Below, in pieces: positions 1 to 5,041 of a DNA stretch of 5,065 nucleotides. Each line of letters starts with the position of its first letter. Position 1 is the first letter of the stretch. The notes below the pieces were generated by a model. The model worked only from the letters and a program-made list of their open reading frames with translations. It had not been told where the DNA came from and did no database searches. A program made the translations under genes and the position numbers. Source of the stretch: Nitrososphaerota archaeon. Lineage in GTDB: Archaea > Thermoproteota > Nitrososphaeria > Nitrososphaerales > UBA183. The DNA lies in contig JAFMAU010000109.1 in NCBI GenBank assembly GCA_029784825.1, positions 1-5,065 on the forward strand, given 5' to 3'.

Positions 1-207
1 CTCATCCCCATTTCCATCCCTTCCCACGCAGCCTATTAATCGCACTTCGCCATCAAGCCGCCGCGCCGCGACAGCCTGATTCGATCCCTTCCCTCCAGGC
101 CCCTTGGAATAGCCTGTGCCCATGATTGTCTCGCCTGGTCTGGGGAGGCGCGACACCCGTATGGTCTCGCTGGCGTTGTAACTCCCGACGACGGTGATTG
201 GCCTCAC
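1..207 (-). CDS. PfkB/ribokinase-family sugar kinase, N-terminal 69 residues (cut by window edge)
   Basis: The frame runs from GTG at 207 off the left end of the window. The translation has the N-terminal signature of PfkB carbohydrate kinases: a first beta strand ITVVGSYN (residues 4-11), the stretch LPRPGETIMG (21-30) typical of ribokinases, the sugar-binding glycine motif GPGGKGSNQA (36-45) with Asn43 at the ribose-contact position, then LIGCVGRDGNG (57-67). Family members phosphorylate ribose, nucleosides or other sugars with ATP in the cytoplasm. The aspartate that follows the first Asn in ribokinase (Asp16 in E. coli, GSINAD) is Ser13 here, so the substrate may not be ribose. GTG at 207 is chosen because GGAGG lies 6 nt upstream and the strand begins directly after it; an in-frame ATG at 261 would add 18 residues of non-family sequence. 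It follows nrdJ by 93 nt on the same strand, possibly as a cotranscribed gene. Family assignment is firm; substrate is unknown because the C-terminal half with the catalytic Asp is missing. Confidence 0.9.
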   Translation of the reverse strand, partial: MRPITVVGSYNASETIRVSRLPRPGETIMGTGYSKGPGGKGSNQAVAARRLDGEVRLIGCVGRDGNGDE

Positions 208-213
208 TTGTGC

Positions 214-218
214 CCTCC
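214..218 (-). promoter_or_regulatory. Shine-Dalgarno of the PfkB kinase gene
   Basis: GGAGG reads on the minus strand, followed by six bases (GCACAA) and then GTG at 207. It is the best Shine-Dalgarno match in front of any gene in this window. It decides the start against the in-frame upstream ATG at 261, and it suggests this gene is translated from an internal position of a longer mRNA. Confidence 0.65.
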
Positions 219-273
219 GCTCGTGTGCCCCGCGCTCATGAGTTGAACATTTCAGACCCATACCCAAGGCGAG

Positions 274-300: not shown

Positions 301-2664
301 CTACTCGCACTTTGAGTAGCCACACGTGTTACAGTGGTAGCACCCGTTCTCGAACACCAGAGTGCTCTCATGGCAGTCGGGGCATGTGCCTGTCCCTCCT
401 CTGGACGCCTGCTTCCCCTTGTATTCGCTCACGAAGCCTGACTCCTTGACCACGTGGTTGAGGGTCAGGAGTTCCAGGGCTTTCGCGATGGCGTCCGGAA
501 TGGACTGCAGCTGGGTCCCCTCGTCCCAGGATACGTACTTCCCTTTGATTCCTTTCAGGGTGGAGATGACGTTCTTGATGTCCCCTCCGTGCTGGAGGTA
601 CAGACTAATCAGCCTGCCGAGTGCAGCTGCGTCTGCGTTCTCGTCTGCTCCAGATTTGCCCAGTGTGACGAAGACCTCCTTGATCTCGCCGCCGACGAGG
701 TTGGCCGTGAGGTAGATGCTCCCCTGAGGCAACTTCAACTTCAGGGTCCTCCCCTCCATGACCTTGGGCCGCTCGAATGACTCGGGGGTCTTCGGGGCTT
801 CGACCTTCTTCCCCACTTTCGCCGTCTCAAGGATCCCTTCTCTGCTCCCTTCCCTGTAGACGGTGATGCCCTTGCATCCCATCTTCCAGGCTAGGAGGTA
901 GATCTTCTCGACTTCCTCGGGCGTGATCTCTTCGGGGAGGTTGACGGTGCTCGAGATGGCGGTGTCGATGTGCTTCTGGATCGTCGCCTGCATCTTCACT
1001 CGCATCTCCGGCCTGATCTGGTGGGAAGTTACGAAGTAGTTCGGGACCTGCCCTTCCTCCTTCGCCCCGGTGGTCGCCATGTACTCCTTCACGAGCGGGT
1101 GGAAGACCTTGAACTCCCCCTCGCTGAGCGACTTGCTCCTCCGCGTGTAGAAGAGGGCGAAGACCGGCTCGACCCCGCTGCTGGTCCCTGCCAGTATCGA
1201 CCCCGAGCCGACCGGGGGTATGGTGGTCACCGCCGCGTTCCTGATCCCCTGGGTCCTGATCTTCTCCTTCACCTTCTCATCAAGCCTGGAGACGAACGGC
1301 TGTGCGAGGTGCTTGCCCGCGTCGAAGGCCGGAAAGCTCCCCTTCTCCCTGGCGAGCTCGGTCGAGTAGTCGTAGAACACGTTCTTGATCCTCTCGAACA
1401 GGTGGTCCACGAACCCTATGGTGGAGTCTTCATCGTACTTCAGCCCCAGCTTGATCAGCATGTCTCCCAGGCCCGTGATGCCCACCCCTATCCTCCTGCT
1501 GTGCAGCGACGCCCCTTTCTGCTGCTGCAGTGGGTGTCTCTCAGCATTGTAGTCGAGGACGTTGTCGAGGAACCTGACCCCATATTGGGCGGCCCTCGTG
1601 AGCTGGTCCCAGTCGATGCTCGCGCTCTCGGTGAACGGATCTTTTACGAAGGCGCTGAGGTTCACCGACCCCAGGCAGCAGCACCCGTAGCTTTCGAGGG
1701 TCTGCTCGCTGCAGGGGTTGACTCCCTGGACTTCCATGCCGTTGTACTCGGTGGTTGACTCGCGCTTGATGGCGTCCCAGAAGAGCACGCCGGGCTCTGC
1801 CGACTGCCACGCTCCCTTGATCAGTGACTTCCAGACGTCTCGGGCCCTGACTGTCCGGTTGACCTCTGCCTTCTCGTTCTTGAAGTGCAGCTGGAAGTCG
1901 CCGTCGGTCTCCACCGCCCTCATGAAGTCGTCGGTGATCTTCACGGAGATGTTGGCAAAGTTCACCCTCTTGAGGTCCCTCTTGACGCCGATGAAGTCCA
2001 TCACGTCCGGGTGGTCCACCCTGATGGTGATCATGAGAGCGCCCCGCCTCCCCGCCTGGCCGATGGTGCCGGTGGTGGTCGAGAGCAGCTCCATGAATGA
2101 GACGGAGCCGGAGCTGTAGATCGCCGAGTTGTTCACCGGGGCCCCCTTGGGCCTCAGGACCGAGATGTCCGTGCCTACCCCTCCCCCGAAGCTGTAGGTT
2201 CTCGCGGCCTCCTTGCACCAGTCGAAGATGGCCTCTATCGAGTCCTCTCTTATCTTGAAGAAGTAACAGTTCAGCAGCGTAGACTTCCTGGTCTGCCCCG
2301 CACCGAACAGAATCCTCCCTCCTGGGACGAACCTGTAGTTCTCAAGGAGCCAGTAGAACTTGGCCCCCCACTCCTTCCTCTTCTCCTCGTCCTTCTCCGG
2401 CGAGGCGAGCTCCCTGGCGACCCTGCGCCACATGTCTGACGGGACCTTCTCCACCTGCCTTCCGTCGGGGTCTCTCAGGGCATACTTCTCATAGAACACG
2501 CGGGCGCGCAGTTCATCTCCTCCGAACGCAGCCAGCGTCTCTGTCGGGAGTCTTACCTCCCCTTTCAGCTCCTCTCCTACGTCCGGAGAGTCGTGTGGTT
2601 GCTCAACGATCGACGTCATAACCTTGGCCTCAACCCCATCGTCCGGGATATATATCTCACCCAC
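301..2664 (-). CDS. nrdJ: Adenosylcobalamin-dependent (class II) ribonucleotide reductase NrdJ
   Basis: Converts ribonucleotides to deoxyribonucleotides using a radical generated from coenzyme B12, so it works with or without oxygen; cytoplasmic. The 787-residue frame is complete. Seen in order: N-terminal segment without an ATP-cone (1-115); redox Cys133 in LLNCYFF; glycine-rich stretch 159-164; RRGA loop region (206-209) followed by VDHPD; the catalytic Asn316/Cys318/Glu320 triad in NPCSEQ; the second barrel cysteine within CCC (328-330) before LGSVNL; TIPPVGSGS phosphate-loop region (481-489) and GTSSGVEP (493-500); a TSCPD-like domain around 640-735; then a zinc-ribbon tail with Cys761, 764, 775, 778 and the terminal Cys781-x4-Cys786 pair, the spacing of the reducing cysteines in class II enzymes. 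Coordinates give the longest frame (GTG at 2664). The true start may be ATG at 2619 (residue 16): a GAGG lies 8 nt before it and a TATA-like ATATATAT sits inside the first codons of the longer version. It lies 108 nt downstream of the regulator-like gene. Two oddities are the triple cysteine and the PPVG loop, where most homologues I recall have ACN and APTG. Confidence 0.96.
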   Translation of the reverse strand: MGEIYIPDDGVEAKVMTSIVEQPHDSPDVGEELKGEVRLPTETLAAFGGDELRARVFYEKYALRDPDGRQVEKVPSDMWRRVARELASPEKDEEKRKEWGAKFYWLLENYRFVPGGRILFGAGQTRKSTLLNCYFFKIREDSIEAIFDWCKEAARTYSFGGGVGTDISVLRPKGAPVNNSAIYSSGSVSFMELLSTTTGTIGQAGRRGALMITIRVDHPDVMDFIGVKRDLKRVNFANISVKITDDFMRAVETDGDFQLHFKNEKAEVNRTVRARDVWKSLIKGAWQSAEPGVLFWDAIKRESTTEYNGMEVQGVNPCSEQTLESYGCCCLGSVNLSAFVKDPFTESASIDWDQLTRAAQYGVRFLDNVLDYNAERHPLQQQKGASLHSRRIGVGITGLGDMLIKLGLKYDEDSTIGFVDHLFERIKNVFYDYSTELAREKGSFPAFDAGKHLAQPFVSRLDEKVKEKIRTQGIRNAAVTTIPPVGSGSILAGTSSGVEPVFALFYTRRSKSLSEGEFKVFHPLVKEYMATTGAKEEGQVPNYFVTSHQIRPEMRVKMQATIQKHIDTAISSTVNLPEEITPEEVEKIYLLAWKMGCKGITVYREGSREGILETAKVGKKVEAPKTPESFERPKVMEGRTLKLKLPQGSIYLTANLVGGEIKEVFVTLGKSGADENADAAALGRLISLYLQHGGDIKNVISTLKGIKGKYVSWDEGTQLQSIPDAIAKALELLTLNHVVKESGFVSEYKGKQASRGGTGTCPDCHESTLVFENGCYHCNTCGYSKCE
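2648..2655 (-). promoter_or_regulatory. Candidate TATA box for nrdJ
   Basis: ATATATAT on the minus strand is the most TATA-like sequence near the nrdJ start. An archaeal TATA box centred here would place initiation around 2625, about 5 nt before the in-frame ATG at 2619, giving a near-leaderless message. This conflicts with GTG at 2664, because the box would then lie within codons 4-6. The alternative is that it is simply coding sequence for IYI. Confidence 0.4.
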
Positions 2665-2732
2665 GGCTGATTGTTAGTTAACCAACATGCAAGACGGCGA
2701 GCGCCCGGTCGACGACATGAGGCGCGCCGCTG

Positions 2733-2757
2733 TTAACTCGTTTTGACAAGAAGTTAA
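2733..2757. promoter_or_regulatory. Imperfect 25-bp dyad upstream of nrdJ, candidate operator
   Basis: Arms TTAACTCGTT (2733-2742) and AAGAAGTTAA (2748-2757) are inverted repeats matching at 8 of 10 positions around a 5-nt centre (TTGAC). The outer six bases pair perfectly (TTAACT/AGTTAA). It is AT-rich inside GC-rich DNA, begins 15 nt after the stop of the HTH protein gene and ends about 70 nt before GTG 2664. Its dyad symmetry and size suit a dimeric winged-helix protein. A further GTTAAC copy lies at 2677-2682. The role as an operator is inference. Confidence 0.4.
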
Positions 2758-2772
2758 GTGGATTGGAGGGGA

Positions 2773-4860
2773 CTAGCCCGCTGTCGAATACTGGGCCATT
2801 GCGACCGACTTGCACCTCGGGCACCTGGCGGAGCCCTGCGGGAGCTTCGCCCCGCAGTTCCTGCAGACGGAGATGGTCCTGTCCACCTTGAAGTAGGGCA
2901 GCTTCGGCGTGGCGTTGAGTATCAGGTTGTAGATCCCCCTCACTTCCTCCGCCGAGCCGTCGAGGGTCACCGAGACCCCACCGTGAAGGCCCGCGGACAG
3001 CTTCGTCATGTAGTCCATCTTCTCCGGAATCTCGAGTTCGGCGAGCTGAACCCTGGGCGCCTGGGTGTAGGCCCCTCTCATGAGAGGCTGCAGGTTCGCC
3101 TTCCCGTACTTCTCAGAATCGAGGCTCGCGAGCCTGGCCGCGCCGTCCAGGTCGAGCATGGCCACCCCCAGCCTGTCTATCTTCGTGGACTTGTCGTCGG
3201 CCACCTGGGTCGCTGTCCCGATGATCTTGTCCGCCAGGTCGTAGCGCGACGCGGTCGTGGGGTCCCGGATCAGGCTGGCGAGCGTCTCGTCGAGGCCCAC
3301 GAGGTTCATGATGAGAGGCATGGTGTCGGAGGTCACGGCGTCTGAACCAGCTGCGAGCGATGGCAGCAGTCCCCGCTTCAGCGTCCTCTCTATCAGCTTC
3401 CGCCTCGTCGAGAGGGCGTCGGCCGCGGTCCCTATCAGGAGCGCCAGCTTCGCCCGGAAGTACGTCTCGTCCTGGTTCGAGTCATACGCGAGCCTCGGCA
3501 AGTTCAGGCTGAGCCCATGCAGCACGCTGATGTTGTCGGCCTGCGACTCCACCGAAAGGACGTTGGCGTTCAGTCCCAGGAAGCTCCTTCTCTGGTCAGA
3601 CGAGAAGAAGGCGATCCTCCCGCCGTTGAAGATAATGGAGGCCGCGTCCTTCAGCGTCTTGGTGTCGTCCACCCGGCTGGGCTTGGCCAGCAGTAACCTT
3701 ACGTCGGGCCGCGGGGTCTCTTCGACGTAGCTCCGGTACGCGCCCAGGGCCGCGTCGAGCGTCTTGTCCATGACCTCCCTGCCAACGTCGTCATGCCTGT
3801 ACGGGTTCAGGTCTATGCTGATGGCTGGGCCGTTGGCCCCCGCGACGGGGGACCCGGCCACCTCGAAGAACCTGAGAAGCAGCGACTCGAGCTCGCGCTT
3901 CCCCCTCGACTTGCAGAAGGGCCCGATGAACTGGAGGAAGTTGCGGAAGGTCACTTCGTCAGAAGCTTCCCTGGTCAGCATCGACGCCATGTTGAGGACA
4001 ATGTTCAGGGCCCTCTCGGCGTTCTCAGGGCTCGGTATCATCGAAGTGTTCGGTATCTTCCCTCTCGGGTTGAGCCCGGCGCTCTTCATCGAAAGGAGGT
4101 CGACGAATACTGTGTCCGGGGTCAGCCCCCAGGAACCCGCGTTGGTGATGTGGATGTCCCCTGAGAGGTGGGCGTCGGCCACGTCCCTGGGGAGCTGCTC
4201 CAGGAGCAGGTACTCAGAGAACACCTGCTTCCCGGTCTGGTGCACGAGGGATTCGACGTTTCCCCCATCGTCCCCGGCCCTCCCCAGGAGCTGGGTGACG
4301 TCGTAGATGGGCATGCCGAGCCTCGTCAGCTTGTGCCTGTATTCTTCCATGCTGTGCTCCACCAGCAGGGCGTTGACGATCTCCCGGATGAGAGGGGCCG
4401 TGAGGTACTGGGTCTGGAACTTGTAAAGCCTCGACTCGGTCTCGCTGGTTATCTTCTGAGCCAGCTCCACCGGCATCCCTGCTTCCTTCACCAGCGACTG
4501 AAGTATCTTGTTGGCGTTGAACTCCTCCATGGTCTGGTGCGAGGTCCTGACGTACAGCTTCCCGCTCTCCACCAGGGACTGCTCTTCAATCTGGCGGGTT
4601 AGGTTCAAGACGAGCCTCCCAAGGTTGGTCACGGTGTACTTCCTCTCCTGTCTGTTGAGCTGGATCAGGAGCTGCTTGACGAGCTTCCTGAGGTGATAGG
4701 CAAACTTCCCGGACTCCTTCTTCGACTTGAAGCCAGCCAGCGTCTTGAGGGCGCTGTACGTCAGCGGGCCCTTTATGTTCAGAATCCTGAGGATCTCCAG
4801 CCTCTGTGGAGAAGCGATTACGCTGTAGATCGTCTTGACCCTACGAGGAGCAGCCTGCAA
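2773..4860 (-). CDS. HTH + ATP-cone + inactive NrdD-like protein, putative nucleotide-sensing regulator of nrdJ
   Basis: A 695-residue protein, probably a transcription regulator rather than an enzyme. Seen: ArsR-like winged helix (about 8-90; SPQRLEILRIL, then a Lys/Arg-rich recognition region, and the KYTVTNLGRLVL wing); ATP-cone (about 101-190; LYVRTSHQTMEEFNANKI to PIYDVTQLL), the module that binds ATP/dATP in reductases and NrdR; then an NrdD (class III reductase) body, recognisable by GDIHI (234-238), RRSFLG (424-429), LSLNLPRLAY (450-459), HGGVSVTL (626-633), LPYFKVDRTISVC (654-666) and a zinc ribbon (Cys666, 669, 680, 683). Relative to the family pattern, the NCC cysteine site reads DTV (249-251), the CRSFL cysteine reads Arg424, and the RxxGY glycyl-radical motif is absent, the chain ending 12 residues after Cys683. 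Only five cysteines exist, four of them in the ribbon. Start is TTG at 4860: no other start lies between it and the in-frame TGA at 4881-4879, and the HTH begins directly after it. A TATA-like box sits 26 nt upstream. No NrdG activase is in view. A working class III enzyme is unlikely; regulator of nrdJ is inference from domains and adjacency. Confidence 0.88.
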   Translation of the reverse strand: MQAAPRRVKTIYSVIASPQRLEILRILNIKGPLTYSALKTLAGFKSKKESGKFAYHLRKLVKQLLIQLNRQERKYTVTNLGRLVLNLTRQIEEQSLVESGKLYVRTSHQTMEEFNANKILQSLVKEAGMPVELAQKITSETESRLYKFQTQYLTAPLIREIVNALLVEHSMEEYRHKLTRLGMPIYDVTQLLGRAGDDGGNVESLVHQTGKQVFSEYLLLEQLPRDVADAHLSGDIHITNAGSWGLTPDTVFVDLLSMKSAGLNPRGKIPNTSMIPSPENAERALNIVLNMASMLTREASDEVTFRNFLQFIGPFCKSRGKRELESLLLRFFEVAGSPVAGANGPAISIDLNPYRHDDVGREVMDKTLDAALGAYRSYVEETPRPDVRLLLAKPSRVDDTKTLKDAASIIFNGGRIAFFSSDQRRSFLGLNANVLSVESQADNISVLHGLSLNLPRLAYDSNQDETYFRAKLALLIGTAADALSTRRKLIERTLKRGLLPSLAAGSDAVTSDTMPLIMNLVGLDETLASLIRDPTTASRYDLADKIIGTATQVADDKSTKIDRLGVAMLDLDGAARLASLDSEKYGKANLQPLMRGAYTQAPRVQLAELEIPEKMDYMTKLSAGLHGGVSVTLDGSAEEVRGIYNLILNATPKLPYFKVDRTISVCRNCGAKLPQGSARCPRCKSVAMAQYSTAG

Positions 4861-4882
4861 AGCAACCGAGACTCGTGGTCAA

Positions 4883-4915
4883 CTCTATTTAATCATATGA
4901 CTACTCGATTTAATC
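4883..4915 (-). repeat. Tandem 12-bp direct repeat spaced 21 bp in the regulator promoter
   Basis: GATTAAATCGAG (4915-4904) and GATTAAATAGAG (4894-4883) match at 11 of 12 bases, and the next base (T) is also shared. The 21-bp period equals two turns of B-DNA, so proteins bound to both copies would sit on the same face. The downstream copy overlaps the likely TATA box. This may be two promoters, or an operator with a second copy acting in autoregulation. The AAAnnGAGT part also occurs in front of nrdJ (2744-2736). Confidence 0.5.
4886..4893 (-). promoter_or_regulatory. Candidate TATA box of the HTH/ATP-cone gene
   Basis: ATTAAATA on the minus strand, 25 nt ahead of the TTG at 4860. Its centre predicts transcription starting at about 4863, so the message would be leaderless or nearly so, which fits the lack of any Shine-Dalgarno between the box and the start. 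A second similar box, ATTAAATC (4914-4907), lies exactly 21 bp further upstream. Confidence 0.5.
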
Positions 4916-4930
4916 AAGGGTGTGAAAGGA

Positions 4931-4950
4931 TGGGGTCGCCCGGATTTGAA
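4931..4950 (-). other. tRNA 3'-end-like fragment (T-loop to discriminator base)
   Basis: Read on the minus strand: TTCAAAT (a canonical T-loop, 4950-4944), CCGGG (4943-4939), CGACCCC (4938-4932, like an acceptor 3' strand) and A (4931). The sequence 5' of it (ACGAG) does not pair with CCGGG, and no GGGGTCG acceptor partner occurs upstream on this strand within the window, so a normal tRNA cannot be folded here. It may be a tRNA remnant, an attachment-site scar left by an integrated element, or the last exon of a tRNA with introns in its T-arm. CCAGG at 4975-4971 would restore four of five T-stem pairs if the 20 nt between were an intron. Confidence 0.35.
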
Positions 4951-4981
4951 CTCGTTTGGGTTCACAATGACCTGGCAAAAC

Positions 4982-5007
4982 GCCCCATTTTACCCGGCTT
5001 TTGGGGC
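4982..5007 (-). other. 6-bp hairpin with 14-nt loop between the tRNA-like fragments
   Basis: GCCCCA (4982-4987) and TGGGGC (5002-5007) are perfect inverted repeats. On the minus strand the hairpin is followed by GTTTTG, which resembles a weak terminator for transcription entering from the right. The TGGGG arm on the minus strand could instead pair with CCCCA at 4935-4931, enclosing 57 nt. Which fold, if any, forms cannot be decided by eye. Confidence 0.3.
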
Positions 5008-5016
5008 ATCAAAAAG

Positions 5017-5041
5017 CGGGGTCGGCCGGATACAACCCAGC
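5017..5041 (-). other. Second tRNA-end-like fragment followed by a T-run
   Basis: On the minus strand GCTGG (5041-5037) and CCGGC (5029-5025) form a 5-bp stem with a 7-nt loop, followed by CGACCCC (5024-5018), G, C and then TTTTT (5015-5011), a plausible archaeal termination T-run. The layout is that of a tRNA T-arm and acceptor end, and just upstream GAAC/GTTC could form a small variable-arm hairpin (5057-5044). The loop GTTGTAT lacks the normal TTC, so this is a degenerate or pseudo-tRNA, or chance. Any 5' part would lie beyond the window. Confidence 0.3.

Follow-up and report, generated by a model that had tools for sequence, protein, structure and literature searches.

According to PMC9110341 and PMC12176259, the bacterial regulator NrdR joins an ATP-cone to a DNA-binding domain, its gene lies beside ribonucleotide reductase (RNR) genes and palindromic sites lie before RNR genes; both papers call NrdR rare in archaea. 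We analysed a stretch of 5,065 nt from a Nitrososphaerota archaeon (Nitrososphaerales; UBA183; GCA_029784825.1, JAFMAU010000109.1), all of which is called the window below. It carries on the minus strand an open reading frame of 695 residues with a TTG start (2773..4860), supported by Pfam, homologues and a predicted model, and downstream of it nrdJ (301..2619, minus strand), which encodes a B12-dependent class II RNR. The initial annotation saw in the 695-residue protein the logic of NrdR, built from a reductase paralogue. This interpretation is supported by the single clade that the protein forms with its relatives, by a conserved gene order and by a conserved DNA repeat that is rare elsewhere. 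From these, the fold, the domain order and the loss of catalytic residues, we consider it likely that the protein is a transcription regulator of RNR genes, made from an archaeal NrdD with an ATP-cone. To our knowledge, the control of RNR genes in archaea is largely unknown; the protein is a candidate for such a regulator, with a named predicted DNA site, and is widespread in its phylum. If this holds, it is a plain example of a pseudoenzyme that has become a sensor controlling transcription in the pathway it came from. No such protein was recognised among the papers listed in the literature searches, which took in PMC3019208, PMC4390871, PMC8463856 and PMC9531940 and left subscription papers and preprints outside; such domain fusions may be present in database annotation or in other papers.

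Residues 1-98 (4567..4860, on the minus strand like all parts of the gene) form a winged helix-turn-helix, with a Pfam match to DUF7347 (PF24038) over residues 11-85 at 38.3 bits against a gathering cut-off of 27.6. The winged helix of the initial annotation was recovered in this way and its ArsR label was not: HTH_20 reached 24.2 bits of the 27 required, and the ArsR/SmtB model NF033788 18.5 of 55. By score the domain belongs to DUF7347, a family itself named as of unknown function, whose name was absent from the literature searched, and a search of solved structures with the winged helix gave no match at a useful E-value. An ATP-cone follows, as had been proposed (residues 99-190, 4291..4566; PF03477 over residues 103-174 at 29.8 bits, cut-off 25.8). 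Alignments place an NrdD-like barrel at residues 198-660 (2881..4269) and a four-cysteine ribbon at residues 661-695 plus the stop codon (2773..2880). The Pfam NRDD model scored 103.5 bits (cut-off 26.2), its best stretch covering residues 447-686, and the fold markers GDIHI, NLPRLA, HGG and the ribbon were all found where the initial annotation had read them; a class III barrel fold and zinc ribbon are present. Of the 7996 candidates that a homologue search scored, 4410 had E<=1e-5; identities to the window protein were 64-94% among the 120 homologues listed. The AF2 model built from a deeper alignment had a pLDDT of 84.5; a model from a shallow alignment (pLDDT 50.7) was not used.

What the protein lacks is the chemistry. 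In the MAFFT alignment, the column of E. coli NrdD Cys175 holds Thr250 of the window protein, and the loop G-C-R-S-F-L around E. coli Cys384 reads Q-R-R-S-F-L, which sets Arg424 opposite Cys384; the second pairing is based on the motif, since MAFFT left the loop with many gaps. Both E. coli cysteines we take to be catalytic. The only cysteines of the window protein are five, at 316 and, in the ribbon, at 666, 669, 680 and 683. The losses of the substrate-site cysteine, of the thiyl-radical cysteine and of the glycyl-radical tail, all claimed from the one sequence, are conserved in an alignment of 80 members (the window protein, database proteins and loci of the 41-locus set described below, 29-89% identical to the window protein): none has a cysteine at 250 or 424 and none has RxxGY, while the four ribbon cysteines are kept in 80/80. 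S-R-[IV]-[TV]-G-Y is retained in every one of the 30 canonical NrdDs that scored best in the phylum. The window chain stops exactly where NrdD carries its R-x-x-G-Y glycyl-radical loop, and in comparison with T4 NrdD the VIA alignment ended at residue 695 against T4 residue 581. The NrdD equivalog model TIGR02487 was not reached (92.5 bits, cut-off 326.35).

A working but odd reductase, with another radical chemistry or with a thiol supplied by another protein, would account for the retained barrel fold, ribbon and NLPR motif and for the anaerobic RNR label found in some databases. It could also draw on the 24 of 80 members that have a cysteine somewhere in the segment aligned to residues 412-436, which blurs the clean loss; the window protein has none there. 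Twelve of these 24 share N-L-C and are Bathyarchaeia-type rows, a name we use for L089, whose protein is identical to the Bathyarchaeota protein P0241, and for loci near it in the tree. The N-L-C rows still lack the first-strand cysteine and the radical glycine, and the canonical NrdD of L091 has N-L-C as well, separate from its own loop cysteine. No non-ribbon cysteine column is filled in more than 31/80 members, Cys316 is common to 8/80, and in 9/80 the only cysteines of the NrdD part are those of the ribbon. An activase was not found either: NrdG and NrdG2 were above cut-off in 0/16 Nitrososphaeria genomes (relatives only), NrdG2 being above it in 4/4 Bathyarchaeia-type genomes. With the missing RxxGY, the low TIGR02487 score and a neighbouring nrdJ that passes its own model (TIGR02504, 555.9 bits, cut-off 399.95), a working reductase is hardly credible. 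Judged from its sequence, the protein is an NrdD-derived copy without catalytic residues, its chemistry lost. It was the only NRDD-matching gene in 7/7 genomes from the 41-locus set. Several databases name it an anaerobic reductase, a label that would wrongly assign a class III RNR to ammonia oxidisers such as Nitrososphaera gargensis.

In the window the gene of the proposed regulator is followed after 108 bp by the open frame of nrdJ (301-2664), and this order is conserved. In a set of 41 loci, a script counted 37 in which the next gene downstream, in the same orientation, encodes an RNR; in L012 NrdJ is encoded in an overlapping open frame, and L010, L014 and L041 stop at contig ends. The same holds for 29/29 loci L054-L082, the best-scoring ones after L053 in a sample of 250 genomes of the phylum; as their proteins share 52-67% identity with the one from Nitrososphaera gargensis (P0237), we call these loci ammonia-oxidiser-type. 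L084 encodes a protein that shares 74% identity with one from Nitrosocaldus (P0125). A further 20 loci, more distant and picked by hand across the score range, include six with an adjoining RNR gene (L084, L086, L087, L089, L091, L102). The reductase encoded at L061 (the one scanned of L054-L082), L084 and L102 is B12-dependent, and we take its NrdD-like N-terminus for an ATP-cone. Other loci have class III nrdD, in the order regulator, glutaredoxin-like gene, nrdD (L086, L089 with its near-copy L165, and L166) or regulator, nrdD (L091, L167, L168 and L169, where nrdD is split over two open frames). Since the order is seen with both B12-dependent and class III genes, the regulator precedes RNR genes of different kinds. 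The intervening glutaredoxin/NrdH-like genes (L086:4733-5098, L089:8980-9291) match below curated cut-offs, and their product is possibly the electron donor of the neighbouring NrdD. In the 250-genome sample, 183 genomes have a match at E<=0.001, a count that includes weak matches and probably also plain NrdDs, and 148 have one at E<=1e-40 (hand count); among the matches listed, down to E 3e-41, the alignment begins within residues 1-46, that is, in the winged helix. No relative came up when IMG/VR was scanned once with a pattern.

The adjoining genes would also fit a protein partner of NrdJ: the dead reductase would lend it an ATP-cone in trans and control its activity through contact, and the winged helix would be a minor or protein-binding part. 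In favour of this, the window NrdJ has no Pfam match to an ATP-cone of its own. In the ammonia-oxidiser-type reductase, however, the N-terminus itself matches the first ~100 positions of NrdD models, and the regulator is kept there nevertheless; it also adjoins class III nrdD, so no single partner explains it. Moreover, no part of the protein is more conserved than the winged helix and the cone: when 79 relatives are compared with the window protein, identity averages 0.70 in each of these two domains, 0.37 in the barrel and 0.39 in the ribbon, and in a 20-row alignment (identity to the window protein down to 64%) 162/190 N-terminal columns are invariant and 109/463 of the barrel. Together with a repeat conserved at two promoters, described next, these points make a contact partner of NrdJ unlikely.

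The repeat TGTCAA-N6-TTnACA was spotted by eye in the intergenic pieces of these promoters. The window has a single strict match, TGTCAA-N6-TTAACA at 2731..2748 (minus strand), 75 bp before the TATA-like element of nrdJ, and 200 shuffles had none; we propose it as operator 1 of nrdJ. The TATA-like element (ATATATAT, 2648..2655, minus strand) was placed by conservation and spacing. Beside it, a second conserved element (GGTTAACTAACAATC, 2669..2683, minus strand) is a possible weaker operator. An alignment of 17 upstream regions shows four conserved islands, which are the repeat, TCATG, GGTyAAC and the TATA element. The regulator's own promoter has a proposed operator, GTCAA-N6-TTAAT (4878..4893, plus strand; one mismatch), that overlaps the TATA-like TTAAAT. 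With at most one mismatch, GTCAA-N6-TTAAC occurs twice in the window, at these two promoters, and 0/200 shuffles have two matches.

Sites matching GTCAA-N6-TTnAC or its complement were then counted in the window and L001-L040, leaving out L014 (no downstream DNA) and L016, L019, L028 and L033 (no regulator start). A site lies upstream of nrdJ in 25/33 near loci and in 5/7 deep-branch loci (protein 45-49% identical), and an exact one upstream of the regulator in 21/30 near loci; the remaining 513 kb of sequence hold one match. With strict halves, a scan of spacings 2-15 peaked only at 6, in near and deep groups alike. The nrdJ site and the TATA-like element are 74-76 bp apart at 18 loci; at five deep loci the distance is 54-56 bp, shorter by about two helical turns. 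Seven of the 25 near sites had no distance from the script; by position it is 75-78 bp in L001, L012, L018 and L031, and no TATA match was present at the near nrdJ sites of L029, L030 and L033. In the ammonia-oxidiser-type loci, looser halves occur at spacing 5 in 20/29 (shuffles 0.8) and strict halves in 7/29. Over 11 whole genomes the strict pattern was at nrdJ in nine, with one further site overall (a control pattern gave three matches); that extra site lies on contig 66 of G002 (L115), where no open reading frame is tied to RNR on reading the translations. The relaxed form GTCAA-N6-TTnACM was at background in 13 genomes (54 matches, 50 for the control), and the own-promoter pattern GTTAAA-N5-TTGAC had 11 matches in 13 genomes, including seven at the regulator, compared with 8 for its control.

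If the protein were a DNA-binding regulator of other genes, its place before RNR genes would be inherited linkage. Distant members without RNR neighbours speak for this; four of them (L083, L088, L090, L096) adjoin ornithine carbamoyltransferase, in convergent or divergent orientation. Some distant family members are only 540-650 aa long. We regard other targets as very unlikely, given that the linkage persists across different kinds of RNR gene and that, in scans of whole genomes, the strict repeat hardly occurs away from the nrdJ promoter.

Several points weigh against a regulator of RNR genes acting through this repeat. Upstream of nrdJ, 8/33 near and 2/7 deep loci have no site; upstream of the regulator, none is present in 9/30 near loci, the window included, and 7/7 deep loci. 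With looser halves, a spacing of 3 also appears in 8/33 near loci. The presence at nrdJ is circular because the repeat was picked from these promoters and nine of the 11 whole genomes were chosen with prior knowledge of it; the circularity does not extend to how scarce the repeat is elsewhere, how it is spaced and that it recurs at a second promoter and in the deep branch. Locus counts are not independent events since the loci are related, some nearly identical. In 10 genomes of the ammonia-oxidiser type the looser pattern gave 14 matches against 19 for the control, with five of the 14 at RNR, and did not single out the RNR promoter. The four Bathyarchaeia-type RNR regions scanned have no such repeat. 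At L089 and L166 the regulator is preceded by an exact palindrome, AGTCAA-N6-TTGACT, which was considered as a Bathyarchaeia operator and rejected, being a dispersed repeat in those genomes: AGTCAA-N6-TTGACW has 12 forward matches in G131 and 14 in G094, and none in G066, G113 and G125. TGTCAA half-sites occur before the RNR operon in 4/8 loci (L089, L091, L166, L167). No RNR neighbour was found at 14 of the 20 more distant loci (L085 being on a 4.3-kb contig). NrdR itself is above cut-off in 7/151 genomes of the phylum (G008, G073, G087, G101, G119, G137, G155), directly before nrdD by coordinates in all seven, and these genomes also hold a distant relative of the regulator elsewhere. The slot before the reductase gene is therefore open to either protein, and the distant members, not being beside RNR there, must act otherwise or in trans. 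Finally, the window protein does not keep the K-R-D-G motif that we take to mark bacterial ATP-cones, which makes ligand binding by its cone unsure.

For the regulator of RNR genes that we favour, we infer binding to the repeat, dimerisation and nucleotide sensing. A dimer formed through the NrdD fold would set two winged helices on TGTCAA-N6-TTnACA before nrdJ, and the same dimer would sit on the related site over the TATA element of its own gene. ATP or dATP in the ATP-cone, and perhaps deoxynucleoside triphosphates (dNTPs) in the old specificity site, would change its shape; as the shape would alter DNA affinity, RNR expression would follow the dNTP pool. The overlap with the TATA element suggests that the regulator represses its own gene. 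A site 75 bp, or 55 bp, upstream of the TATA element of nrdJ fits activation, or repression jointly with the second element, and for any single direction of nrdJ control our confidence is lower than for a regulator of RNR genes as such.

The origin of the protein was explored in a quick tree, built by maximum likelihood from 25 members of the family together with 20 canonical NrdDs; columns filled in <60% of rows were removed beforehand, a step that should cut most of the winged helix. The family falls on one side of a single branch (SH-aLRT 100) and adjoins 12 archaeal NrdDs, the joint group having an SH-aLRT of 96; several long branches were flagged. An archaeal NrdD with an ATP-cone would have been duplicated, lost its catalytic residues and been fused to a winged helix. 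More tentatively, we propose that the dead RNR is the counterpart in this phylum of bacterial NrdR, reading ATP, dATP and other dNTPs through the ATP-cone, the specificity site and perhaps the substrate pocket and relaying the outcome to a winged helix that sits at the promoter of the RNR gene. The dead RNR may have arisen once, by the archaeal NrdD duplication, before the split of Nitrososphaeria and Bathyarchaeia, and have stayed before the RNR gene while the RNR class was swapped.

The other features of the window can be described briefly. The earliest possible start of nrdJ, GTG 2664, falls within the promoter, and the start is probably ATG 2619 because an ATG there is conserved among relatives in the alignment of upstream regions. 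This ATG lies 36 bp past the start of the TATA-like element, so near that the nrdJ transcript may be almost leaderless. Positions 1-267 (minus strand) hold the start of a PfkB-family carbohydrate kinase gene that continues beyond the window edge. At 4926-5040 (minus strand) are two stretches like tRNA 3' ends (...TTCAAATCCGGGCGACCCCA), and a tRNA-like 3' end also stands directly before the regulator in several relatives. ARAGORN (window and eight relatives) and Rfam (window) reported no tRNA; an intron-bearing tRNA, a broken tRNA or an integration scar are possible origins of these stretches.

By domain, then, the protein is not NrdR, and by analogy it is NrdR-like in its logic. Like NrdR, it joins an ATP-cone to a DNA-binding domain, adjoins RNR genes and has a palindromic site, here a predicted one, before an RNR gene. 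Unlike NrdR (a 147-position model), which has an N-terminal zinc ribbon for DNA, it carries a winged helix in front and a dead reductase of ~500 residues after the cone; at E<=0.1 the window protein had no match to the NrdR model TIGR00244, and the repeat before RNR differs from the paired 16-bp NrdR boxes. With the class III reductase NrdD (T4 1h78, T. maritima 4coi, S. thermophilus 9d3x) it shares the fold, the ribbon, the ATP-cone, GDIHI and NLPR. It differs from NrdD in having gained the winged helix, in lacking the thiyl cysteine, the second cysteine and the glycyl-radical tail, and in that no activase is over cut-off in the genomes related to the window. BirA and PutA are enzyme folds that sense the state of a pathway and bind DNA, and they keep catalysis, whereas the enzyme part of this regulator is catalytically dead.
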